Assembly: GCF_000828085.3 (NCBI RefSeq)
Contig: NZ_JXCA02000011.1
Coordinates: 1 to 34,513, forward strand
Reading direction: 5' to 3'
From: Scytonema tolypothrichoides VB-61278
Lineage (GTDB): Bacteria > Cyanobacteriota > Cyanobacteriia > Cyanobacteriales > Nostocaceae
DNA: 34,513 nt
This document shows positions 1 to 29,832 of the stretch, one piece after another. Each line of letters starts with the position of its first letter. The first letter of the stretch is position 1. Made by a program: the position numbers and the translations under genes. The notes beneath the pieces are model-generated. The model searched no databases and was not told the DNA's origin. It worked only from the letters and a program-made list of their open reading frames with translations.

Positions 1-163
1 TTACTCCCATTTTTCTGCTGGGGTAAGAGCCACAAACATTTTTCCTACCCCCTGTTACTCGACGAGATGGGTTGGTGCTACGAATCTCAGAGATTAATGC
101 TTGCGCTGCTGAACTGAGGTGTTGAGTATGACACCAGTTGTTGAACTCTTGGTTGTCAAGCAT
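1..163 (-). CDS. tnsA: TnsA-like transposase subunit, N-terminus (gene runs off the left edge)
   Basis: The minus strand reads from an ATG at 161-163 to the window edge without a stop, giving 54 residues. They end in an NPSRRV segment, a Gly/Arg turn, then NVCGSYPSRKMGV. This pattern is what I recall from the start of cyanobacterial TnsA endonucleases of Tn7-like elements, including those of CRISPR-associated transposons; TnsA cuts the 5' ends of the transposon during excision. Catalytic residues would lie beyond the window. The gene starts about 90 bp inside a transposon end with four direct repeats, the usual place of tnsA next to the right end. No clear ribosome binding site is seen. A TnsA-TnsB fusion is an alternative that the visible part cannot exclude. 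Confidence 0.62.
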   Translation of the reverse strand, partial: MLDNQEFNNWCHTQHLSSAAQALISEIRSTNPSRRVTGGRKNVCGSYPSRKMGV

Positions 164-257
164 AACCAGGGTTAATCCGGGGTCTTCCGTCCGGGTTCCT
201 TCTACTGTTTATGGAAGCACAACGTTATATATGTACGAACACTCGTGTTGAAAATGT

Positions 258-414
258 TTGCTCAACTTATACTTTCTAAATAGAACGTTTGCTCACCTTA
301 TGCTTTCAAATCTTCATATTTCTACTTTACGCTATATCGAATTTAATTAGGTTTCAAAAAATTGATTGCTCAACTTATGCCTTCAAAGTTGCTCAACTTA
401 TCCTTACAGTGACA
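258..414 (-). repeat. Four 22-bp direct repeats: putative TnsB binding sites plus terminal ACA
   Basis: The copies are TTGCTCAACTTATACTTTC at 258-280, TTGCTCACCTTATGCTTTC at 289-310, TTGCTCAACTTATGCCTTC at 366-388 and TTGCTCAACTTATCCTTAC at 389-410. The core TTGCTCAACTTAT is nearly invariant, and the last two copies abut. The last is followed by GACA, ending at 414. Plasmid iterons were considered. The neighbouring tnsA-like start and the terminal trinucleotide favour a transposon end. Confidence 0.65.
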
Positions 415-709
415 CGAAGCCCTTGCTTTGAGATTGACACAAATCGAAGGGGCAATCTCCTTGCTTGGACAGCGCTCATATACTCCCTACAAAAAGCAAT
501 CCTACCAATATCACCCACCGATGCTTGAACTCCAAGCTTACACCGGGGAGAATCTGGCCAAAAGATTGGGCGTTGATGTGGCAACTCTGGAGCGATCGCG
601 GCACTCTATGAGCCAACAAGATTTTGAAAGCTGGTGTAAATCGCGCGATCCAGGGTCTGTAAAGTGGCGATTTGGTGGTGATGGGCTTTTCCACCCTATT
701 AAAGGATGA
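413..709 (+). pseudogene. Truncated gene of unknown function interrupted by the transposon end
   Basis: A reading frame is open from the first codon after the transposon terminus to a TGA at 707-709, about 98 codons, with a TGA inside the transposon sequence just before it. There is no ATG until 521; a TTG at 428 is the only other early start. The C-terminal half (LAKRLGV, then SRDPGSVKWRF and a short aromatic end) looks like the end of cyanobacterial plasmid proteins in which a short helix-turn-helix-like segment is followed by an R-D-P-x-x-x-x-W motif. I read it as a gene whose 5' part was separated by the insertion. A 62-residue protein starting at 521 remains possible. Confidence 0.45.
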
Positions 710-820
710 GCCTTCTAACTCCAGGAGCGACTATTCATTTGTCAACGATGGCCAACACTGGGTAAATCGACGACATTCCTCGCTGGTGCCGAGTGAGCGG
801 AGGGAGCCGTAGCGCTGGCG

Positions 821-1087
821 CTAAACGAGAGTGTATATTTCATCAAAAAACATCTTTGATTGTGCGCAGTATTTTTCGGAAAGCCGTTCAATTTGTTCAA
901 GATCCTCCAGAAGATGATTGATGGCATTCTGTAATTGCGGTCTTGCTTGGTCGTATAAAGTGAAATAAGTAAGACGCTCTTGTAAATTCTTAAAAAGTGC
1001 AGCGTTGTTGTAATCCTAGAAATAAGTTGGTTGAAACTTCTGTATCTCAGCCCTAAGATTGCAACCAAAACGCAAAATTGAAAGAAT
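821..1087 (-). pseudogene. Degenerate gene with an in-frame TAG stop
   Basis: On the minus strand a frame opens at 1087 (TTG start candidate at 1073-1075), is interrupted by TAG at 1016-1018 and continues in the same frame to TAG at 821-823. The second part is 65 codons with strongly protein-like composition: LFKNLQERLTYF, then a helix INHLLEDLEQIERLSEKY and a short end. It reads as amphipathic helix or coiled coil. No methionine start exists in the frame. The family is not recognised. A longer minus-strand frame over the same bases looks like a shadow because its composition is less protein-like. No gene is seen at 710-820 or 1088-1303; the latter is AT-rich and probably holds the promoter of the next gene. 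Confidence 0.45.
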
Positions 1088-1303
1088 TTAAATAGAAATA
1101 ATAGAAATTGTTTTTATTGTTATATTGATGCACTTTGAAAGCTAAAAGTCGCGTTTGCGTCAGCCCGTTTAAACACTTTATTGTTTTTAGAACGGCGCGG
1201 GTCTTTTGCTTATCCAGCTAAAAGTCATGAAGTCAATTCATGCAATCATTTGAATCTTTCGGATTTGCAATTGAACTTTTGGTTCTTTTTAATATTTAAC
1301 ATC

Positions 1304-1807
1304 ATGAATAATTCTCGAATTGAGGAACGAATTTTCTCCGCCTGCAATTCTTCGGTCAGCGCGCGAGAGTTTACGGATGAAGAAAAGCGTTACATTCTGG
1401 AACATCAAAAGTTCCGGGAAGACATGCTACGCTGGTTTGAATCGAATAGCAGCGATGGTTGTTGGACAGAGGAAGCTGTCAATTTCATGCGTTGTTTCTA
1501 CGATTACTGGGAAGTCTTACGGTTGATAATAAACCTTTATGGGATTTCTCCAGAAGATGCCCAAATGCTGTTGGGTGAAAACGTACTAGATCCCGCCTTG
1601 AATCTTTCACTGCTTAGTCAGCGGCAGATTGCCACGATGCTTGCAGCCCTACGGCTATTTCAACAACAGTTGATCACCACCAACATGGTAGAGATGTTCC
1701 CGGAACATTTTGATTACGGCAATATCCTGCCCTTATCCCCGGTCGAAATTGACCATCTTTGCGAACAAATCAACGTTTCACAGGAGATAGAAACGGATGA
1801 ATGTTGA
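1304..1807 (+). CDS. Small plasmid protein of unknown function (167 aa)
   Basis: I chose the ATG at 1304 because the extra 41 codons before it come from AT-rich, low-quality sequence. There is no clear Shine-Dalgarno. The protein is soluble and mostly helical. Its C-terminal half, a helix with LAALRLFQQQ, then a short loop, then LSPVEIDHLCEQIN, resembles the end of widespread small plasmid and phage proteins in which an A-L-R-x-[WF]-Q helix is followed by a P-L-S-x-x-E-I-D-x-L-C-E segment. No function is established for that group as far as I know. The gene is followed by a second one that overlaps its stop codon, so the two probably formed an operon. Confidence 0.6.
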   Translation: MNNSRIEERIFSACNSSVSAREFTDEEKRYILEHQKFREDMLRWFESNSSDGCWTEEAVNFMRCFYDYWEVLRLIINLYGISPEDAQMLLGENVLDPALNLSLLSQRQIATMLAALRLFQQQLITTNMVEMFPEHFDYGNILPLSPVEIDHLCEQINVSQEIETDEC

Positions 1808-1991
1808 GTATATTGACCGCGCGTTCGTTCGGACTGCGGCATACACGGGCTAACTTCAGCGATGGGAACGGTGACACCATCATCACGGAAGTGAAAAACT
1901 GGCAGCAAAAGGGAAGTTTGCGCACACGGGCGTTTACTGGATTGCCAACTGTCTTGCGGCATCAGGGCTGATTCATCCTCAGCTGCCTTGA
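1797..1991 (+). pseudogene. Frameshifted gene downstream of, and overlapping, the 167-aa gene
   Basis: An ATG at 1797 overlaps the previous stop and has a good AGGAG at 1782-1786. It opens MNVEYIDRAFVRTAAYTG, then stops at 1851-1853. Coding sense appears to continue in a second frame (SDGNGDTIITEVKNWQQKG) and then a third, HTGVYWIANCLAASGLIHP, ending at TGA 1989-1991. This fits a former gene of about 60-65 codons broken by two small indels. The first segment alone would be an 18-residue peptide. The family is not recognised. Confidence 0.5.
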
Positions 1992-2000
1992 GTTAGCGAT

Positions 2001-2043
2001 GGAATGTTCTGAGTTTGGGATGTATCCCAATCCAGAACATTCC
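2001..2043. repeat. Large imperfect hairpin after the broken gene
   Basis: GGAATGTTCTG at 2001-2011 pairs perfectly with CAGAACATTCC at 2033-2043, and inside it TTGGGAT pairs with ATCCCAA around a 2-nt loop. The stem is therefore nearly continuous over 43 nt. It lies just after the end of the frameshifted gene. There is no run of T on either side, so it is a weak fit to a Rho-independent terminator and may be a structured 3' end or a remnant of a mobile element. Confidence 0.55.
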
Positions 2044-2604
2044 TATTCGTTTGATGAAAGGATTGCAGACAGCAGCAACAGAACAGGGGTTCTCCAAAAC
2101 CTGGACTCCTACAAAACAGTGGTTTGATAATTGACAGAACAACACAGCAGCGATCAGGAAAGGTGATTGTTGCCTGCTTCAGTCACTGCCTATTGCAACC
2201 AAGCCAGTTGAGCGAAGCGGTCTGACTGAGCGCTGCGGGGTGTTTGACAATGTTAGCCGACTCACAGGAACAGCGCTCGGTCAGCAACTGGCATATATCA
2301 AAGCAATTTAATGATAGGACATTAAATAGAGGTTTGCTTGCTTCAATGAACTAAAGTGCAATTCTTTAGATAAGCAATACTATGTTTGCAGCTTGACAAG
2401 CTTTTTCTGTAGGTTCCGCTAGGTAAAGATGACAGCGGGAGACGATATGTAGGATGTCCGGTGTTCATTGTTGCTGGCAGCAGGGTAATGCTTCTGGAAT
2501 ACCCTCACTATCGACCATAGCATATGAAATTTCCTGTAAAAAGTCAGCACTCCAGCATAAAATGTCCCCTCCGCAACTTATGATGGGACAAAGGATCAAG
2601 CGGT
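2044..2604. other. Stretch without an intact gene
   Basis: Only short or broken plus-strand frames are seen. An ATG at 2054 gives 26 codons and then continues in the same frame for about 60 further codons after a TGA. The neighbouring frame is also broken once, near 2223. Neither shows a recognisable domain. The stretch sits beyond the 3' end of the antitoxin gene at 2605 and looks like eroded coding DNA. No clear promoter or terminator was found for the minus-strand operon ending at 2605. Confidence 0.4.
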
Positions 2605-2928
2605 TTAATGCCCTGACGATGCCTGAATTGGTTGTACACTCAGGCGATAGCCAAGATTGTGCAGAATAAGGCTGATGGTTCGCAGTTCAGGATTCCCTTC
2701 CTGTGACAACGCCCGGTAAAGATTCTGGCGGTTCAAGCCTGTTTTTTCCGCGAGATGAGTCATTCCCCCCCGTGCTTCCACCAGGTTCCGCAGCGCTTCC
2801 AGAAAAAATGCCAGATCGCCATCCTGTTCGTACTCTTCAAGAGCAACGTCCAGGTAAGTCTTTGCCATTTCGGGGTTCAGCAGCTGCTCCATCACAATTT
2901 CGTCATGGTTTCTCAGTTCCTTGCTCAT
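2605..2928 (-). CDS. Type II antitoxin, HigA-like (HI1420 family)
   Basis: The product (107 aa from the ATG at 2926-2928) would neutralise the toxin encoded just upstream and repress the operon. The first third is acidic and helical (ALEEYEQDGD, FLEALRNLVEARGG). The rest is a Cro/C1-type helix-turn-helix: MTHLAEKTGLNRQNLYRALS, then NPELRTISLILHNLGYRLSV. This is the layout of the probable addiction module antidote proteins of the HI1420 type. The start codon overlaps the toxin stop as ATGA, so the two are translationally coupled with toxin first, the order usual for HigBA-type pairs. Nine extra in-frame codons upstream belong to the toxin gene. Confidence 0.85.
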   Translation of the reverse strand: MSKELRNHDEIVMEQLLNPEMAKTYLDVALEEYEQDGDLAFFLEALRNLVEARGGMTHLAEKTGLNRQNLYRALSQEGNPELRTISLILHNLGYRLSVQPIQASSGH

Positions 2929-3266
2929 CCCTGTTCCTCCTGGTAAGCCTGCCAATATTCTTTAGCCTTTTCTATGTCAGAGTCCTGGCTGTCCTTGTCG
3001 CCGCCGCACAGGAGAATCACCAGATCGTTTGCGGATTCTCCAAAGTAAACGCGGTAACCACTTCCAAAGAAAAACCGCAGTTCCCTCACGCCTGAGCCGA
3101 CCGACTTGCAATCTCCATAATTCCCCTGCTTCAGCCGCTCTATCCGGCGGATTATCTTTGAACGGGTCACATAGTCCTTCAGGTTTTCCAACCACTCGGT
3201 GTACGGCTCCCTACCGTCTTCTGTAGCATAGACTTTCAGGACTTTTGGACGAATGCTATCAGCCAT
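2925..3266 (-). CDS. Type II toxin, RelE/HigB-like (HI1419 addiction-module killer family)
   Basis: A 113-residue RelE-fold protein, expected to be a ribosome-dependent mRNA endonuclease. Family signs are the N-terminal ATEDGREPYTEWL, the helix pair with KIIRRIERLKQGNYGDCKSV, the strand GVRELRFFFGSGYRVYF and the C-terminal LVILLCGGDKDSQDSDIEKA. The length matches the family and no truncation is seen, so the toxin is probably active. It is the first gene of a two-gene operon with the antitoxin overlapping by 4 bp. A strong promoter with a palindromic operator lies immediately upstream. Confidence 0.88.
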   Translation of the reverse strand: MADSIRPKVLKVYATEDGREPYTEWLENLKDYVTRSKIIRRIERLKQGNYGDCKSVGSGVRELRFFFGSGYRVYFGESANDLVILLCGGDKDSQDSDIEKAKEYWQAYQEEQG

Positions 3267-3279
3267 AGTTTAATTATAT

Positions 3280-3308
3280 ATTGTAGCTTATAAGCGACAA
3301 AACGTCAA
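3280..3308 (-). promoter_or_regulatory. Sigma-70 promoter and palindromic operator of the HigBA-like operon
   Basis: Read on the minus strand, TTGACG (3303-3308) and TACAAT (3280-3285) are separated by exactly 17 bp. The near-perfect palindrome TTGTAGCTTATAAGCGACAA (plus-strand 3281-3300) covers the spacer and the -10 box. This is where the helix-turn-helix antitoxin would be expected to bind for autorepression. Binding is inferred from position only. Confidence 0.75.
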
Positions 3309-3321
3309 GAATTCCACAGTC

Positions 3322-3522
3322 TTAGCCGATTTTGAAAAGGTGATTCTTTGATAGCATCATGGTTAAAATACATATTGTTTCAAAGTCTACCGTCACCCCC
3401 TGTACGGCGGCAAACATCGCTGGCGTTAAACCCCAGAACAGCAGTGCTGAGAGAAACGACGTAGACTGATCGCTACTGCCTGCCTTGAAACTTCTGCGAT
3501 AATAAAGTGTTGTTATCCGCAC
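3322..3522 (-). pseudogene. Remnant of the 3' end of a DNA N6-adenine methyltransferase gene
   Basis: The frame contains SSDQSTSFLSALLFWGLTP followed by AMFAAVQG. These match the C-terminal segment SDQSAPFPSALLLWGLSP and ELLAAM of the intact Dam-type methyltransferase gene at 22906-23829. Nothing of the catalytic NPPY part is present, and the following residues diverge. This is a decayed fragment of a second copy of that gene family, ending where the integrase gene begins. It may mark an old recombination junction. Confidence 0.6.
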
Positions 3523-3530
3523 TTGCCGCA

Positions 3531-4226
3531 GTGAAAGTTGACCGTCACGGGAAAGCCAAAGTTCTCACCCAGGAGGAAATCCAGCGCCTTTTCTCAGAAG
3601 GGCTGTTGACCTTACGTGACCGAACGTTGTGCGCGGTGATGCTGTATACCGCGTGCCGGGTCAGAGAAGCCGTTACCCTGAGTCTTAGGGATGTCTATGA
3701 CAGCAAACGACGGGTCAGACCGGAGCTAATCATCCGCAAGGGCAACACGAAAGGGAAACTTGACACCCGTACCATCCCGGTGATGGACGACCTGCGGCGA
3801 TATCTAGAAGTTTACAAACCGAAACCTTCTGAGGATGGCTACCTGTTCCCTGGCAACTGGGGACGGGGGCATTTGCATGAGGAATATGCGTCTCTCATCT
3901 TTCGAGAAGGGTGCAGACGTGCGGACATTGAAGGGGCATCCACCCACAGCTGCCGCCGGACGGCCTTAACCATTATGCACCGGAACAATGTCCCCCTGCG
4001 GGTCATCCAGGAAATCAGTGGACATCGCAACTTGGAGCAGTTGCAGCGGTATTTGGAAGTGGAGCAAGAACAAGTGCGGGGAGCGATCGCCATGTTAAGC
4101 ATGATCTCGCCTGTGCCAACGGAATTGATAGCAGAAGAGACCTGGAACACCGCTCATCGCCAAAAACTACCCAAAAAGATCAGGAAAGAGCTTTATATTG
4201 ATCCAGCCCAATCCCCGCCGTTTTAG
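3531..4226 (+). CDS. Tyrosine recombinase / integrase (short, catalytic-domain only)
   Basis: The enzyme would catalyse site-specific recombination. The catalytic set is visible: Arg in YTACRVREAVTLS, H-x-x-R in THSCRRTAL, His in SGHRNLEQL and the nucleophilic Tyr in QRYLEV. I start it at the GTG of 3531 because the protein then opens MKVDRHGKAKVLTQEEIQ, which fits the start of short cyanobacterial plasmid integrases; an upstream start at 3507 is possible. At 231 residues it lacks a separate N-terminal arm-binding domain, as usual for this group. Its last 60 bp overlap the 3' end of the convergent primase gene, so the C-terminal residues after the helix following Tyr may be an extension. Possible roles are resolution of plasmid dimers or mobility of a cassette. 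Confidence 0.85.
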   Translation: MKVDRHGKAKVLTQEEIQRLFSEGLLTLRDRTLCAVMLYTACRVREAVTLSLRDVYDSKRRVRPELIIRKGNTKGKLDTRTIPVMDDLRRYLEVYKPKPSEDGYLFPGNWGRGHLHEEYASLIFREGCRRADIEGASTHSCRRTALTIMHRNNVPLRVIQEISGHRNLEQLQRYLEVEQEQVRGAIAMLSMISPVPTELIAEETWNTAHRQKLPKKIRKELYIDPAQSPPF

Positions 4227-6338
4227 AGCGTCCCAATGCACGGTAAACCACTCCCTGGCTTCCTGCCACAGGATGGGTGAGCCGGACTGGGCGATCAGTA
4301 TTCGCACGACCAGCTGCTCCATCTCCTGGCGTTGCCTTAAAATGGGATGAATCGAATGGGCAAGACAATGCCATTTCACTTTGTCTTTGGCTTTGATAAG
4401 CGCTTGTACCCTCAAGCTGGCGGCTTGCCGATGCTGTTCCGGGGTAAAGGTGCTGGCATCGACTGCTGTTTTTTGAACCTTGGGCAATCGTTTCAACGGT
4501 GAAGAATTCACAGCGGCAGAAAGCAAGTCTGAGAAAAACTCTTGATCAGCAGCGGTCGTTGACGCTGAGGAATTCTGGTCAGGAGACAATCCGTCTGGTA
4601 CAAACGTTCGTGTAGAATCGGGTACAGAAACCGGTGCAGAGGCAGGATCGGAATCAGGCTGGGGGAGACTGATAGCAGTGCTATCAACGCAGCTGTGGCT
4701 AGCACTGCTATCGTCTGAAGCAACGGGAACATCAGGCGTTTCTGTGATTAATAAGGCTGGGTTATGGTCAGTCAGCGGCTCGCGGGGGGAGGATTGGGAT
4801 AGATTATGCTTATGAATTGGAATTGGTACTTCAACCGCCTGAGGCAGTTGAAGTACCGGAAGCGGCAAACACACAACCTTCATATATGGGGGGAGCGTGT
4901 AAATCGCGTTGCTATCGGACGTGGGCGCTTGTGGTATAAGGGTTTCAGAGTTTGGTGATTCTAACCACGGGTCTGGCAATTGGGGGTATTTTTCCGGCTG
5001 CTCCGGGGCTACAACCTGTACCACCTCCGCATTTACACGCTCTTTCTCATGCAAGGGATGCCACAAGGGTAGGTAATGTGGCTTATGCAGGGTTGTTTGC
5101 GATACCCCAACCCCGTATAATGTTTTTGAAATTTCAATAATCGCTTTGGTGCGAGCACTAGTGGTTTCAGGAAACTCCCTCTGCTCTTTGAGGGCTGTCA
5201 CCGCCGCACTGACACGGGCAAACGTTTGTTCGTGGCGCTGTTGGTTGGGCGAGAAGGGAACAACATTATTCGCTTCTTGACCATCGCCAAATTGTTCGCG
5301 GTAAGTACGCTGACGATTGGGGATGGAACAATAGGGCGTGTAGTATCCTTCGCAGTTTCGGGCGCGTTCGGTTGCCCGTTTGCGGATTTCGTGCTGGTGT
5401 CTACACCATGTGTGGTAGCCGGGGGCGGCAACGGCTGTGGCGACAACGTAATCCACCAAGGCTTCCCCTCGCAGCTTGCGAAAGACAATCCCGTGGCACG
5501 CGAAGTCCTTTAACAATTCGTTGGTCTGGTGGAAGCCCGTCCATCCCTGCTGAATGCGTTCTTCCAGGTTACGCTCCCAAAGCAGCGCCCCGTTGCTGGT
5601 GTATTTCCGGGTGAACCGTTGCTGCGACTGGATTTTGGCGTTGGCGATCGCCTGGTGCAGTAATTCATCGTCTTGTCCCTGGGCTGACCACTCAGCAGTA
5701 TTGAGAAAATCTTCGAGATTGTCGCTGTAGAAATCGAAGAAGAAGTGGTTCAGGATGCAAGAACCCTCTTGCAAAGGCAGGCGATGGGCGTTGAAGTTTG
5801 TCGGCTTGTCCTTACCGTAGGATTTGGGATTGGGAAACAGTTCAAGCTGTCCGCCTTTGACTTGAATGCCAGCCTGTTGTAGCGCCAGAAAGACTGCGTA
5901 AGCCAGATAAAAAGAATCCAGTTTTTCGTTGAAGAAGTAATAAACATGGATTCCGCCGCTGGGACTGGACTGGATGAGGACATAACGGGTTAGACCAACC
6001 GTTTCCAGCGTTGCCAGAACATTATTGAAGTTTTGTAAATTATTGGCAGGGTGATTAGTACTGTCCGCATCGATGTCCGCCAGAAAGTAATTGGTGGTGC
6101 TGCCGAATCGTAGTCCCAGCAGTTCGTCGGGATTCTGGTATCGGCTCCACAGGTTGCGGGGCTGCAAGGGATAACGGGTTTCGGTATGCCAGCCAGGGCT
6201 AGATCCGGCTGATGGCACGGGTGCAAAAATAAACTCCCAAGGATGATGAAAATACTGGAGAAAACGTTGACCAATACTATCTTCCGGGGGAAGACTATTC
6301 GAGGAAAGGTATGATTTATTGTCGTCTGCTGGCGGCAT
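4167..6338 (-). CDS. Plasmid replication protein with archaeo-eukaryotic primase (PrimPol-like) domain
   Basis: A 723-residue protein that probably initiates plasmid replication. The N-terminal 200 residues carry primase-polymerase signatures: the acidic metal motif LADIDAD (about 87-92), the S-P-S-G-G-I-H-V-Y-Y motif (125-134) and QLELFPNPK (164-172). A helical region follows to about 420, then a long Pro/Ser-rich linker (about 460-640) and a compact basic C-terminal domain ending in a W-I-N-I-K-L-F segment. Similar large primase-like proteins occur on cyanobacterial plasmids. No helicase motif is visible. TGTCCCTACC repeats lie 80-140 bp upstream. The gene converges on, and overlaps by 60 bp, the integrase gene. 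Confidence 0.72.
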   Translation of the reverse strand: MPPADDNKSYLSSNSLPPEDSIGQRFLQYFHHPWEFIFAPVPSAGSSPGWHTETRYPLQPRNLWSRYQNPDELLGLRFGSTTNYFLADIDADSTNHPANNLQNFNNVLATLETVGLTRYVLIQSSPSGGIHVYYFFNEKLDSFYLAYAVFLALQQAGIQVKGGQLELFPNPKSYGKDKPTNFNAHRLPLQEGSCILNHFFFDFYSDNLEDFLNTAEWSAQGQDDELLHQAIANAKIQSQQRFTRKYTSNGALLWERNLEERIQQGWTGFHQTNELLKDFACHGIVFRKLRGEALVDYVVATAVAAPGYHTWCRHQHEIRKRATERARNCEGYYTPYCSIPNRQRTYREQFGDGQEANNVVPFSPNQQRHEQTFARVSAAVTALKEQREFPETTSARTKAIIEISKTLYGVGVSQTTLHKPHYLPLWHPLHEKERVNAEVVQVVAPEQPEKYPQLPDPWLESPNSETLIPQAPTSDSNAIYTLPPYMKVVCLPLPVLQLPQAVEVPIPIHKHNLSQSSPREPLTDHNPALLITETPDVPVASDDSSASHSCVDSTAISLPQPDSDPASAPVSVPDSTRTFVPDGLSPDQNSSASTTAADQEFFSDLLSAAVNSSPLKRLPKVQKTAVDASTFTPEQHRQAASLRVQALIKAKDKVKWHCLAHSIHPILRQRQEMEQLVVRILIAQSGSPILWQEAREWFTVHWDALKRRGLGWINIKLFPDLFG

Positions 6339-13835: not shown

Positions 13836-16646
13836 CTAACGCTCCCGCTCGGTTTCCGGCTTTCGTTCCTGCGGTTGCCGGACATTTGTTGTTTGCTGGT
13901 GATGACCATCCTTAGTAGCAATGTTCAGCTTATCAAAGCGGTACTCCTTCAAATGCGCTTCACGCTGTTCCAAAGGCAACTGCATCGCTTGCAGATGGCG
14001 CGTCTGCCGGAATTCCTCAATCTTACGATACGTATTTGGATGTTGTAGTACTGGGGCGATGCCCTTGGCAAGGTACGCTTGGCGGCTTGGCTCATCCCCA
14101 AGCGCTTTCATAAACGGGCTTTCATTCGTCAGGGTTTTGGCGATCTGGTTATTGGTGAATCCGGCGAGCTTGAGTTTCACCGCTAGTTCGGCATCGGTAT
14201 GCGGGGTCAACGCGTCGGATTTACGGCTGCCGATGATGCGTCCTAGCTCTTTGAGGTATTCGCCCTTGCACTTATCCCGCCACGTCGCCGTGTCTTCGCC
14301 TAATGCCCACAACGCTTTGTTTACCTGCTTTTCGGCGTCTTTGCTTTGTAAGGTTCGGGTGACGATGTAGCGGACGGTATCGGCGTCCATCTGCCCCAAG
14401 GCGTAAACAGGGACTTCCTCGACCGTGTAGCGATTGAGCCTGATCGTGTTGCCGCTGCCAGGGGAGGGCTTTGGCTTTGGCGTCTCCCCTGACGGCCTCA
14501 CCGTTCCACGTTCGCGGTCGGGCGAAGCGGGCTTACCTCGTTCCCGGTCTTTATACTGCCGCCACTGTTCGATAAGCTGGCGCTCGTCCTGCTGCGGCAG
14601 TTTTTCGGAGGGGGTCTGTTGCCGCTGCTGTGCCTTTTGCTGTTTGCGGTGCAAGTGCTGCAACAGATCCGGATCACGGCTGATCTTGTCGATGGTGCGG
14701 CGGATGTAATCCTCTTCGTGCCCCTTTTTGCGGGTCGCCAGGTCAGGACTGTTACGCAAGGCATGTTCCAGGGCTTCCATGCTGTAGCCGTTTTTTGCCA
14801 TACGCTTCAACACCACCCAATCACGGCGGCTGGGGTCTTTCAATCCATGCTTGCGTTCCACGGACGTGCTGATCCTGGTGAAGACCGTCACCGCTTGCCG
14901 TAGCTCGGCTTCCGTCGCCGTCTCCTTGAGCAGGTCGGCACGGTGTTTCAGGGCTTCTTCCCGCTCAGCTTTTTCCTTGGCGACCGCCTGTTTCGCCAAT
15001 GCTAAGAAATGCTCCGCCTGGGCGGCCGATTGCCGCTGTGCCTGATGCAGCAGTACCCAGGGATACTTGCCGCTGTACACATCGAGATGCGTTTCCTTAC
15101 GATTTGTAAAGCCTGCCAGCCTGCCATAGTGCTGGTAACTGGCACTGCCAGGATCGCCGCCCGCTTCCTTTGCCAGCAGCTTGGCAAGCTGGGTTGCCTC
15201 CTCGCGGTCGATGCGATCGCTGATGTTGACCCACGCCTGGCAGTTCCTATAGCTGGTTTCCACGACAACGGAAGGTTGTAGCCCCTTCGCCACCAGATCC
15301 TCCGCCATCACCGGGTCAAGGTCGTCGATGAGAATCAACCCCTGGGAGTCGCCGTTATTATGAGGCGCTGGTCGCACATAGATATGGCTTCCCCGCGCGT
15401 TTTCGCCTTTCAGATAATCAAGAATGGGTGCTTTTTGGGTCTCCGGGTCGATACGGAGAATCTGGTCTTTATGCCATGTTTTTTCCTTGAAATATCCGCG
15501 CTCGTCATTACCGATGCCGATCTCGAACCGTCCGTCACCGCCCATTGCGTCGAGTTGCCGCATGACAGCGTAATAGGTGCGGTCTCGCCGTGCCCTATCT
15601 TGCCTCAACGCTTCTTGCTGCTTGTCCACGGGTACTGCTTTGCTCTCCGAACGGCTTTTTTCCTTTGTAGCATCGGTCTGGTTCGTGTGCGTGACCGGGC
15701 TTGGAGGAGCATTTGCGACCACCCCTTGAATAACCTCTTGCGTCACCTCGGTGAAATCCCGCTGCACCTGCTGCCGTAGTTCAGCGGCGAGTTTCGCCGT
15801 TTGCTCCATTTCTTCCAACGTCGGCTTACGGTTGTCCTGCTCGGCGGCTTTCTTATGTCCTAGCGCCTGTTCCCCCGCCAACTCTTCGAGTTCCAACCGG
15901 ATCTCCTCTTTGAGAGCATTGATTTCGGCAATTTTATCGTTAAGGATGATCGTTGGTGCTTTGACTTTGGTTTCGTGCTTGTCGCGCAGCGCCGTGACAC
16001 TTCTGCCCTCGTGCAGCTGAGGAATGCGGTCGATACCCTGCGCCTCATAGCTGCGGTGATCGACACGCTGCTGGTAGCCGTTCTGTTCCAGATGGCGATT
16101 GAGATATTCCGCCCACTTCTCCCGCCACTCCTGTAGCTGCTGCTTGGCGTTCCATTTTCGCTCCTTATTCCCAAAACGATCGCCATCCAACAGGCGCGTC
16201 GTCAGCAGGACATGAGCATGGGGATTATGGGATTTCTCTCCTTCAAAATCATGGTAAGCCATATCCACAACCATGCCTTTCGCAACGCATTCCCTTTGCA
16301 GAAAGGAACGGCTGACGCTGACCTTCTCGTCATGGGACAGGAACGCGGGAAACGACAGGATCAGCTGCCGGGCGGGGCGGGCGTCCTTGGGGCGGGTACT
16401 CGTGTCCTCGGCTTTCTCGCATTCGTTCCACAAGCGGTTACGGTCGAACACCCAGGCAGGCGCATTGGCGGGCGCGAGAATCTCGTTGCCGTACACATGC
16501 TGCTTGTTCCGGTAATCGTGGGTGATGCCCGTCCGTTCGTCGTACAGTTTTTCCGCAGTGTTGTAGGCCGCCGCCGCTACCGAGGAGTGCCCCTCGCTCC
16601 GCTTGACGTTCTTGGTCTCAAGCCGATAGTACGCCGCTTGTGCCAC
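13836..16646 (-). CDS. mobA: MobA/MobL-type relaxase fused to a RepB-like primase domain
   Basis: A 936-residue MOBQ-type relaxase that would nick oriT and lead the strand into a recipient. Residues 1-230 are the relaxase: AYYRLETKNVKRSEG, the catalytic Tyr28 in AAAAYNTAEKLY, DERTGITHDY, and the metal-binding histidines in HNPHAHVLLTTR (140-151). After a coiled-coil stretch comes a primase domain like that of RSF1010 MobA-RepB', with IDDLD at 440-444, RNCQAWVNI near 467-475 and GRLAGFTNRK at 508-517. The C-terminal third is Gln/Arg-rich, then helical. The start ATG is 108 bp from the candidate oriT, with a MobC/TraD-like gene divergent beyond it. Confidence 0.9.
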   Translation of the reverse strand: MAQAAYYRLETKNVKRSEGHSSVAAAAYNTAEKLYDERTGITHDYRNKQHVYGNEILAPANAPAWVFDRNRLWNECEKAEDTSTRPKDARPARQLILSFPAFLSHDEKVSVSRSFLQRECVAKGMVVDMAYHDFEGEKSHNPHAHVLLTTRLLDGDRFGNKERKWNAKQQLQEWREKWAEYLNRHLEQNGYQQRVDHRSYEAQGIDRIPQLHEGRSVTALRDKHETKVKAPTIILNDKIAEINALKEEIRLELEELAGEQALGHKKAAEQDNRKPTLEEMEQTAKLAAELRQQVQRDFTEVTQEVIQGVVANAPPSPVTHTNQTDATKEKSRSESKAVPVDKQQEALRQDRARRDRTYYAVMRQLDAMGGDGRFEIGIGNDERGYFKEKTWHKDQILRIDPETQKAPILDYLKGENARGSHIYVRPAPHNNGDSQGLILIDDLDPVMAEDLVAKGLQPSVVVETSYRNCQAWVNISDRIDREEATQLAKLLAKEAGGDPGSASYQHYGRLAGFTNRKETHLDVYSGKYPWVLLHQAQRQSAAQAEHFLALAKQAVAKEKAEREEALKHRADLLKETATEAELRQAVTVFTRISTSVERKHGLKDPSRRDWVVLKRMAKNGYSMEALEHALRNSPDLATRKKGHEEDYIRRTIDKISRDPDLLQHLHRKQQKAQQRQQTPSEKLPQQDERQLIEQWRQYKDRERGKPASPDRERGTVRPSGETPKPKPSPGSGNTIRLNRYTVEEVPVYALGQMDADTVRYIVTRTLQSKDAEKQVNKALWALGEDTATWRDKCKGEYLKELGRIIGSRKSDALTPHTDAELAVKLKLAGFTNNQIAKTLTNESPFMKALGDEPSRQAYLAKGIAPVLQHPNTYRKIEEFRQTRHLQAMQLPLEQREAHLKEYRFDKLNIATKDGHHQQTTNVRQPQERKPETERER

Positions 16647-27120: not shown

Positions 27121-29832
27121 TTAATCAATTTTAAATAGAAGGTAATGTTCGTTGACTTTTATATTTATAAATTGATTGCGTAAACTTTTTGCTTCTGCGT
27201 CTCTTTCTAGTGCAAAATAAATTTGTACTAAAGCGTGCATGACATCAGTGATATTATATATATTTCGTTGTATGCGTATTCCTGATGTTTCCAACAAGAA
27301 TTTTAGAGTTTTATAAGCCTGCTCATAGAACGGCAATGCCGTTGTGTACATTTTTTGTAAATAGTAGATATCAGCTAAACATTTGAACCCTTCAGCAATC
27401 TGGCTGTCTTTCGTAGCAATCTCGGTGGCACTATAAATCGTTTTATCCTTTTTAGGACAAAATGATATGATCATTAAGCTTAACGCTAAATTAGTAATTG
27501 GTTCTGCTTCTGCATACTTTCCTTGCCAATAGTAGGCACAACCCAACTTATTCAGGCTATTGGCAATATTAGTAAGATTTACATCAGTATTTGGAATAGT
27601 GCTAGCCTTCGCATCTAACTCTTCTAATAAATTTGTTATTAATAATTCATTTGGTGTATTTAAATTTTCATTTTCTCTTCTATCTTCTCTTTGCAAGTAA
27701 TAAATATTACTCAACCTTTCAACGATGACAGCAATATCAGGTGATGATTCCTCCAGCAATCGTTTCCTTATGTCTAAGGATTGTTGATATAATGGTTCTG
27801 CTTCGGCATATTTTTCTTGACCATAATAGATATTCGCTAATTTAGTAAGGCAAATGGCAATATCAGGATGATGATTTCCTAAATTTTTCCGAACTATTGA
27901 AAGACATTTTTTTGCTAAGCTTTCTGATGGTTCATATAATCCTTTCTCATAATATATACGTTCTATAATACTTGAAAGCCATATTAAATCTTTAATCGGC
28001 ACAAAGGAATTTAAGTTTACTACTATATCTTCTCCATGCGGAAGAAAAATATTATTTACATCTTGTAATGTTTCATTATCGTTATTTTTGTTATAATCTA
28101 AAGAAGCCTTTTTAAGCCAATCTATCATTGATTCTACAAAAGATTCTTTGATGTTTTCTGAGTGCTCTGAACTTTTTATTTTTTCTTGTAAAAATTCTCG
28201 AATCAATGGATGAGTTTTATAGCAAAGTTTTTCTTCTGTATTTACCCATTGAATTAAATGATGTTCATAAAGTTCTTGATTTGCTTCATCTAAGATCAAA
28301 TTTGACCAGGAGAGCTTTTGGATCATAGATTCTACCCAATCATAAAAAAACGCACTAGATTGAAATAAACCTAGTAATTTAGTTACTCCCTGTGTCGCGG
28401 AACTCAGTTCTTTCCAAGTAAGTTCAAAAGCGGCTTTTACGCCTCTTTGAGCGGTATTAAGAGTTGATTGCAATTCCTTTTCTGAAGGGTTAATCGCTGC
28501 ATTTTTAATCGTTTCTTCCTTAAGGCTTTGCAACATTTTAGCAAAAGACCAGTGCGGTCTTTTTGCTAAGTATCGCCCGACCAATAACAATCCTAATGGT
28601 AAGTAACCCAACAATTTACATATCTCTTCAGCCGTCTGCTTTTCCTTTATTATTCGTATATCTTGCTTTTCTAAAGTGCTTATTAAAAGTTGCAATGATT
28701 GTTCGGGTGACAAAACATCTAACGATATCTCTTCAATGATGTTATGGTCTATGTTTCGCAACCTAGTTGTAATTAAAACGCGAAAGCGATTTGCCATCGG
28801 AATTATTTTAAGGCAGCTTTCTAGATTAACTACATCGTCTAGCACTATTAATACTAATCCTTCCGGTGGCTTCCAATGTCGCCAAATCCAATTTATTTTT
28901 TGTTCAATACTAATTTCCTGTGGTACTTCCATTTTTAATTGGGAAGTAGCAAATTCTAATAATTCTAAAGACAAATTGTTATTTCTGGCATTCAGCCAGC
29001 ATATCCCTCCAAGGTAACTGGCTTCATTATCTCTTGCATATCTGATCGCAAGCTCGGTTTTTCCAACGCCACCCATGCCACCAACTGCTGTAACAGCGAT
29101 TCGCTGATTTGAGTGGAAGGCTTGATGCAACTTTTCAAGTTCCTGCTGTCTTCCTACAAAATTATTAACTCCTTTGTACGGAATATATTGCGAAGAATTT
29201 AGGAAATGATGTTCAATAGATTCATCATTGTTCCGGGTATCCGATTGATAGTTACTCTCGCTTTCATCAATATTCTCAGTGTGAAGTGTCTCTGCTATTA
29301 CTGTCTTAGAATTTTTCCATTCTTCCTCAAACCGCTTTTTATTCTTTTCAAGATTAATGCTCCAAAGCTCTAAAGAAAATTGGCGATCTCCTGGCTTAGA
29401 TCCTGAATGAGGATTCTTTAAAGATTTATAAATTTTCAACGGATGTTTTTCTAAGTTCTGGGTTAATATCTCGCCAATTTTTTCAGGATGTAGTTTATAT
29501 TTAAAATTCTTATATTCATTAAGATTCCAGCGCTTGATTAAGGCAAATAGGGTCTCACTTGATGCATGCCTTATTTCAAGCTTAGGATTCTGTTCGCCGT
29601 TAGTTCCCCAGTTAACTCTTTCAATCTGAATACCTGCGAACTCAGCTGCCTCCCCGCTCGCTTCTGCGTCTGCCTGAAGGAATAAAGCTTTAATAAGCCA
29701 CCATGCTGGTTCTTTATATGCTGTTCCTACACCTGTGTGCTTCGACATGTCAGTTAGAGATGGAGTATTTATAAAATTTACCAAAAAATCCCCGATTCCC
29801 CAACCTCTTCCCCAACCTCCTGATCGAGACAT
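27121..29832 (-). CDS. STAND NTPase: NB-ARC core with C-terminal TPRs and unknown N-terminal domain
   Basis: A 903-residue STAND ATPase. NB-ARC motifs: Walker A GGMGGVGKTE (251-260), Walker B VLIVLDD (327-333), VLITTR (352-357) and GYLPLGLLL (409-417). A winged-helix/helical part follows to about 600, then tetratricopeptide repeats (for example LTKLANIYYGQEKYAEAEPL, LNKLGCAYYWQGKYAEAEP). STAND proteins sense a ligand, oligomerise and switch on an N-terminal effector, and many bacterial ones defend against phage. Residues 29-210 match no effector I recognise. The gene is much more AT-rich than its neighbours and contains no HIP1 site that I saw. An ATG at 29746-29748 is an alternative start, since the first 28 residues come from a G-rich repeat. 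Confidence 0.82.
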   Translation of the reverse strand: MSRSGGWGRGWGIGDFLVNFINTPSLTDMSKHTGVGTAYKEPAWWLIKALFLQADAEASGEAAEFAGIQIERVNWGTNGEQNPKLEIRHASSETLFALIKRWNLNEYKNFKYKLHPEKIGEILTQNLEKHPLKIYKSLKNPHSGSKPGDRQFSLELWSINLEKNKKRFEEEWKNSKTVIAETLHTENIDESESNYQSDTRNNDESIEHHFLNSSQYIPYKGVNNFVGRQQELEKLHQAFHSNQRIAVTAVGGMGGVGKTELAIRYARDNEASYLGGICWLNARNNNLSLELLEFATSQLKMEVPQEISIEQKINWIWRHWKPPEGLVLIVLDDVVNLESCLKIIPMANRFRVLITTRLRNIDHNIIEEISLDVLSPEQSLQLLISTLEKQDIRIIKEKQTAEEICKLLGYLPLGLLLVGRYLAKRPHWSFAKMLQSLKEETIKNAAINPSEKELQSTLNTAQRGVKAAFELTWKELSSATQGVTKLLGLFQSSAFFYDWVESMIQKLSWSNLILDEANQELYEHHLIQWVNTEEKLCYKTHPLIREFLQEKIKSSEHSENIKESFVESMIDWLKKASLDYNKNNDNETLQDVNNIFLPHGEDIVVNLNSFVPIKDLIWLSSIIERIYYEKGLYEPSESLAKKCLSIVRKNLGNHHPDIAICLTKLANIYYGQEKYAEAEPLYQQSLDIRKRLLEESSPDIAVIVERLSNIYYLQREDRRENENLNTPNELLITNLLEELDAKASTIPNTDVNLTNIANSLNKLGCAYYWQGKYAEAEPITNLALSLMIISFCPKKDKTIYSATEIATKDSQIAEGFKCLADIYYLQKMYTTALPFYEQAYKTLKFLLETSGIRIQRNIYNITDVMHALVQIYFALERDAEAKSLRNQFINIKVNEHYLLFKID

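Follow-up and report, generated by a model that had tools for sequence, protein, structure and literature searches.

Tn7 has arrays of end repeats, makes 5-bp target duplications and carries TnsA, TnsB, TnsC and TniQ/TnsD-type genes. Tn5469 of Fremyella diplosiphon is said to be 4.9 kb long, with three ORFs, about five copies and a 5-bp duplication. Passages of PMC11406308 describe Tn5469 as a Tn7-like element that lacks cargo, has a single TniQ and apparently transposes only in an untargeted way, and report that it was discovered through spontaneous gene inactivation. The same passages state that the I-B2 and I-D CRISPR-associated transposons (CASTs) arose within the fused-TnsAB subfamily of Tn7-like elements, which also includes unstudied non-CRISPR members.

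The stretch analysed here (the window; 34,513 nucleotides of Scytonema tolypothrichoides VB-61278) is the start of contig C15 in a genome of 31 contigs and 7.89 Mb (G000). It opens with the end of a Tn7-like transposon that very probably is multicopy and CRISPR-free, belongs to the cyanobacterial fused-TnsAB subfamily and acts as a large insertion sequence. With Tn7 it shares end-repeat arrays, 5-bp duplications, a TnsA-type domain, TnsB, TnsC and a TniQ/TnsD-type gene, whereas TnsA and TnsB are fused, the one TniQ is short and several copies are present per genome; no TnsE was seen by eye among the element's ORFs. As described for Tn5469, it has a single TniQ and scattered sites, the scatter being judged from few sites. 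It is however longer than Tn5469, has an extra gene of 194 codons placed after tniQ and before the right end, and contains another right end that has decayed. Its short three-gene relatives do have a single TniQ and no cargo, and are likened to Tn5469 by description alone. Compared with PmcCAST/Tn7744 (type I-B2), TnsAB and TnsC are homologous near full length and TniQ over most of its length, but the window's element lacks Cascade, a second TniQ/TnsD and a junction tRNA gene, and its TnsAB lies on a separate branch. It fits the picture of non-CRISPR fused-TnsAB members drawn in those passages of PMC11406308. Literature searched by title or abstract gave nothing closer; Hsieh and Peters 2023 and Kahn and Schaefer 1995 lay outside this comparison, and we do not claim that the relatives are undescribed.

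The end in the window and the rebuilt element

The tnsAB-proximal (A) end occupies window positions 1-414 on the minus strand, window position p being element position 415-p and window base 1 element base 414. The last element base is 414, where the sequence ends in ...CTTACAGTGACA and identity with the other copies stops; the match to contig C10 extends to 417, yet base 415 already differs. Four repeats of the form TTGCTCA(A/C)CTTAT start at 258, 289, 366 and 389. End repeats 4 (258-277), 3 (289-308) and 2 (366-385), all on the plus strand, are putative TnsB binding sites; repeat 1 (389-408) lies, together with the tip ACA at 412-414, within a 29-bp terminal inverted repeat (386-414, plus strand) identical to the opposite tip of the element. 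Shuffled sequences gave a mean of 0.09, and none of 100 held four repeats. Both the repeats and the terminal ACA, which a sequence-only reading had taken as marks of a Tn7-like transposon end, are present, the repeats far beyond chance, and that assignment was confirmed. Six occurrences of this transposase-gene end were found in the genome, each at the start of a contig or close to its end. The opposite (B) end, which the same reading had expected elsewhere, was recovered through its last 29 bases at six further places.

The divergent tnsA-like start proposed at the left edge proved to be the first 54 codons (2-163, minus strand) of a 919-aa TnsA-TnsB fusion seen on contig C1. Searched with these 54 residues, the check that the same reading had proposed, Pfam returned no match at E 1, because the TnsA-domain match begins at residue 74; the N-terminus of a type I-B2 CAST TnsAB (PDB chain 9bw1_M) was matched at E 1.4e-11.

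The longest A-side piece measures 4,253 bp, at the end of C1, and the long A side of the rebuilt element rests on this one contig and copy; the other A ends are covered over only 239 to 414 bp. B-side pieces of 3,962 bp each were found on C2, C4 and C7, with a mutual identity of 99.975-100%. They share 2,163 identical overlapping bases with the C1 piece, which gave an element of 6,052 bp that still contains three N. The shorter pieces are 99.955-100% identical over the element sequence each contains, and the tips of the element are 29-bp perfect inverted repeats. Four genes were found, tnsAB (919 aa, element 252-3011), tnsC (369 aa, 3011-4120), tniQ (296 aa, 4110-5000) and the 194-aa gene (5239-5823), the remaining ORFs being short and overlapping. 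The genes expected to the left of the window, tnsB, tnsC and tniQ, thus stand in this order in the rebuilt element, with tnsB fused to tnsA; in the window's own copy their order is unreadable because the contig ends.

The reading frame of tnsAB is open on C1 and that of tniQ on C2, C3, C4 and C7. In the copy on C22 the likeness ends at element base 414 or 415, which interrupts tnsAB after codon 54 or 55 by 310 bases (C22:11315-11624), the start of which resembles, by eye, an IS630-type transposase or insertion. C10 and the window's contig both start exactly at element base 414. Since the C22 interruption sits at the base where the window's contig begins, the window's tnsAB may be whole or broken beyond codon 54. 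This cyanobacterium holds about six copies of the element.

Proteins and the CRISPR question

The 919-aa protein combines PF08722, rve and Mu-transpos_C domains, TnsC gave a TniB/AAA match and TniQ a PF06527 match (all Pfam); the element therefore has the TnsA-type nuclease with DDE transposase, the TnsC AAA+ ATPase and the TniQ-family protein of the fused-TnsAB Tn7-like subfamily. The closest solved proteins by sequence were those of type I-B2 CAST: TnsAB matched chain 9bw1_M at E 3.8e-266 over residues 5-870, TnsC matched 8fcu_Q at E 2.1e-95, and TniQ matched both 8fcu_P (E 6.9e-37) and the TnsD chain 8v32_J (E 2.8e-36). We take the entries 9bw1, 8fcu and 8v32 to be PmcCAST proteins. Against the CAST TniQ, the alignment covered 6-220 of 329 residues. 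Against TnsD (462 aa), the 296-aa TniQ aligned significantly only over TnsD residues 5-68 and 96-257, and a third piece, reaching TnsD residue 314, was by itself below significance. Passages of Faure et al. (PMC10293859) connect recognition of the attachment site with the C-terminal part of TnsD, and they mention loci with a TniQ too short for target selection; from its alignment, the TniQ of this element would have lost target specificity. One further TniQ match in the genome (C8:5382-5819) contains an internal stop.

The sequence-only reading had also raised the possibility that the element is RNA-guided. This idea found no support: the ORFs of the rebuilt sequence include no cas gene. The genome gave no match to the Cas7 family PF01905, and no spacer-like match to the 12 junction flanks was detected (35 matches for the 12 flanks; 40 of 48 candidates scored). 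Flank matches of at least 30 bases at an identity of at least 90% were the flanks themselves or near-whole-flank copies, as of repeats; weaker matches of 38-75 bases at 77-84% were present. On ORF content, the PF01905 result and the flank search we therefore ruled out a CAST for the element itself. Type I-B2 CASTs carry Cascade genes and a CRISPR array, whereas the ORFs of this element are tnsAB, tnsC, tniQ, the 194-aa gene and short overlapping ones; they also have a second, long TnsD with a tRNA-gene attachment site, in place of which a single TniQ of 296 aa was found. PF09707, presumably type I-E Cas2, says little about type I-B.

Insertion sites, the copy in a probable plasmid and the 194-aa gene

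At three of the six A ends in this genome the adjoining 5-bp word recurs at a B end (TCATT, GTTAT and GCAAC, with GTTAT at two B ends). The other A-end words, CTTCG, CGCGC and AGTCA, had a partner at none of the six B ends, and TTAAT, TCAGT and one of the two GTTAT at B ends were left without an A-end partner. Joining the C4 and C1 flanks with one copy of the duplication restored a single open frame of 430 residues from stop to stop in a TnpB-like gene, and the C3 and C2 flanks gave one of 513 residues in a sugar-kinase-like gene (both named by eye). The B flanks of C3 and C7 are repeated DNA. The sites outside the probable plasmid described below lie in unrelated genes or repeats and seem scattered and untargeted, as judged on few sites. 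A tRNA attachment site was ruled out for these sites: among 22 loci scanned, no tRNA gene lay near the junctions in this genome, and tRNAs occurred in only two loci, L010 (two, more than 9 kb from the junction) and L040 (a tRNA-Lys 88 bp before the left end, a point against untargeted insertion in the family).

The window's own insertion did not yield the 5-bp duplication predicted for it, CGAAG (415-419, plus strand) being found at none of the six opposite ends. The element adjoins here the 3' half (416-709, plus strand) of a gene whose product resembles the element's own 194-aa protein, at 37% over residues 91-192. At the far end of the contig lies the 5' half of this gene (C15:68935-69105), which likewise adjoins an A end. 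Both halves of one plasmid gene thus touch A ends (window 415; C15:69105), which a single insertion does not explain. Compared by eye with the homologue in the relative L126, the two halves seem to lack about 100 bp of intervening gene sequence; a pair of insertions in opposite orientation, with loss of the short piece separating them, would fit as a candidate history. The unpartnered A and B ends, together with a plasmid gene whose two halves each meet an A end, mean that rearrangement, deletion or double insertion has occurred. The contig encodes a MobA/MobL-RepB-primase protein (13836-16646), and the simplest reading is therefore that it is probably a mobilizable plasmid closed through the split gene. 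Elsewhere in the window, an NB-ARC/TPR protein with the effector-associated domain EAD4 is encoded at 27121-29832, and the ORFs at 2605-2955 and 2925-3266 lie in DNA similar to plasmid genes that carry the annotation of a RelE/ParE-family toxin-antitoxin pair.

The 194-aa protein has a weak ribbon-helix-helix likeness, with a CopG-like N-terminus at E 0.01, below the Pfam cut-off. PHROGs and PADLOC gave no match at E 0.01, and Pfam, NCBIfam and PDB only weak CopG/coiled-coil or chance-like ones. At E 1e-10, homologues occupied 92 places in 88 plasmid records, of which the 60 listed are all cyanobacterial and mostly have one place each; at E 0.001, a homologue was present in 58 of the 388 genomes of the order. 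The gene is absent inside the near relatives whose right end was readable. About 80 bp before it, element positions 5115-5158 show the family's right end in degraded form, with a score of 59 that none of 1000 shuffles reached (their maximum was 40), so that a decayed inner right end, the 194-aa gene and the outer right end follow one another. The simplest history is therefore that, as the inner right end decayed, its role passed to one on the far side of the gene, and that the 194-aa gene was probably gained as cargo in this way. Such a double-right-end layout does occur: at L094 a second right end (L094:10898-11093) lies 195 bp beyond the element's own, with the flank GTATAC as at L095.

Relatives and competing explanations

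TnsAB proteins about 77% identical were found in Calothrix brevissima NIES-22 (four copies, two chromosomal and one on each of two plasmids), Nostoc sp. C052 (two plasmids), Nostoc sp. 106C, Desmonostoc muscorum, Nostocales LEGE 12452 and an uncultured bin, in Nostoc sp. ATCC 53789, where an annotated IS630 gene splits it, and in Aulosira laxa NIES-50, where the protein is internally altered. Five of these loci (L036, L041, L042, L094, L095) measure 5,123-5,151 bp tip to tip; they share tips, end layout and the three genes with the window's element but, where the right end is readable, lack the internal 194-aa gene. Two others, L097 (6,278 bp) and L039 (5,639 bp), contain extra DNA, and the sequence of L037 stops before its right tip. 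In relatives without extra DNA there, the right end follows tniQ by 115-152 bp. Matching duplications were seen in four of the eight relatives with both ends readable (L036, L094, L095 and L097, with the words ACAAC, TCTGT, GTATA and ATAAT) and not in L039, L040, L041 and L049. In a quick, midpoint-rooted tree of 45 TnsAB proteins (SH-aLRT support only), the window's element falls into a nine-row clade with seven near relatives and L046 (support 100), apart from PmcCAST.

A second, TniQ-less Tn7-like type of about 4.75 kb, limited to TnsAB and a long TnsC of about 485-488 aa, has TGTG...CACA tips. It was seen at L096, L150, L151 and L152 (Nostoc sp. ATCC 53789 plasmids), at L092 and L153 (NIES-3275 plasmids) and, in the present genome, at C11:11059-13641 and C2:1-3235. 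Nostoc sp. ATCC 53789 holds four full, equal-score copies on plasmids (its contigs C2, C4, C8 and C10, none with a PF06527 match), the three with both flanks visible showing the duplications GCTCC, ACAAG and ACATT; its contig C1 carries a differing TnsAB. The right region after tniQ in L039 and L040 (13750-14386) contains about 490 bp with tips, by eye, like those of this type, between TGGAC repeats. The insert looks like a small non-autonomous derivative of the TniQ-less element, and end capture was rejected for the long right region of the NIES-22 copies. In L126 (2901-5648) and L098 (255-3302), single frames join a TnsAB front to TnsC-like sequence, as after a deletion, each followed by tniQ; the junction frame was shown by tblastn for L126 and is presumed for L098. 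The intermediate relatives L046 (16123-17297), L047 (14475-16166) and L048 (16091-17334) have in common a gene pair, one of them cysteine-rich, which by eye lies 0.7-2.3 kb after tniQ.

Three other explanations were weighed against a mobile, CRISPR-free element. Its TniQ matches the PADLOC TniQ_IB model (E 5.9e-33), its TnsAB and TnsC match I-B2 CAST proteins, and passages of Faure et al. (PMC10293859) propose that short-TniQ loci might recruit selectors in trans, all of which would suit a reduced I-B2-type CAST in which TniQ brings in a Cascade from another locus in the cell. With no PF01905 Cas7 in the genome, strong flank matches confined to the flanks and their near-whole copies, and TnsAB on a different branch from PmcCAST, we regard this as very improbable. 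That the copies are relics of a dying element which no longer moves is unlikely: copies without matching duplications, the interrupted tnsAB on C22 and relatives with damaged genes (L098 with its altered, joined tnsAB-tnsC, L097 with an IS630 gene inside tnsAB) point that way, but the near-identity of the pieces, the open frames of tnsAB and tniQ and the three clean duplications argue against it.

The plasmid site also raises the question of targeting. Plasmid genes of the 194-aa family could be the targets on which the lineage homes, with TniQ or the cargo protein recognising them: a gene of this kind is disrupted by the window's insertion, the cargo gene is preceded by the decayed inner right end, and in the diverged L126 (TnsAB 43%) a homologue begins 197 bp after tniQ with right-end-like repeats, by eye, between the two. 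Yet when loci of near relatives were searched with the cargo protein, L038 alone gave a homologue, at a distance of about 7 kb, the other sites in this genome lie in unrelated genes or in repeats, and at the plasmid it is A ends, not right ends, that touch the gene; we therefore hold such homing to be quite unlikely. We give similarly little credence to a related history, in which a CAST-related TnsAB-TnsC-TniQ branch lands just upstream of 194-aa-family plasmid genes with its right end facing the gene, and the window's element later swallowed its landing gene as its inner right end was lost and a right end past the gene came into use; the element would then carry a spare gene of the same type as the plasmid gene it breaks.

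In the preferred reading of a multicopy, CRISPR-free element, TnsAB would bind the end repeats, cut both strands (the TnsA part 5', the TnsB part 3') in a cut-and-paste reaction and join the element ends to target DNA, duplicating 5 bp of it. The short TniQ, together with TnsC, would license targets with little sequence specificity, since this TniQ is without most of what forms the C-terminal part in the related TnsD. Decay of the inner right end, with the end beyond the 194-aa gene taking over, would have turned that gene into cargo, and the window's copy would sit in a probable mobilizable plasmid, inside the plasmid's own homologue of the cargo gene. Multicopy, free of CRISPR and equipped with a naturally short TniQ, this relative of the I-B2/I-D CAST machinery is a compact system for probing what TniQ needs for targeting and how TnsAB and TnsC behave with a weak selector; the decayed right end nested inside it points to one way in which Tn7-like elements acquire cargo.
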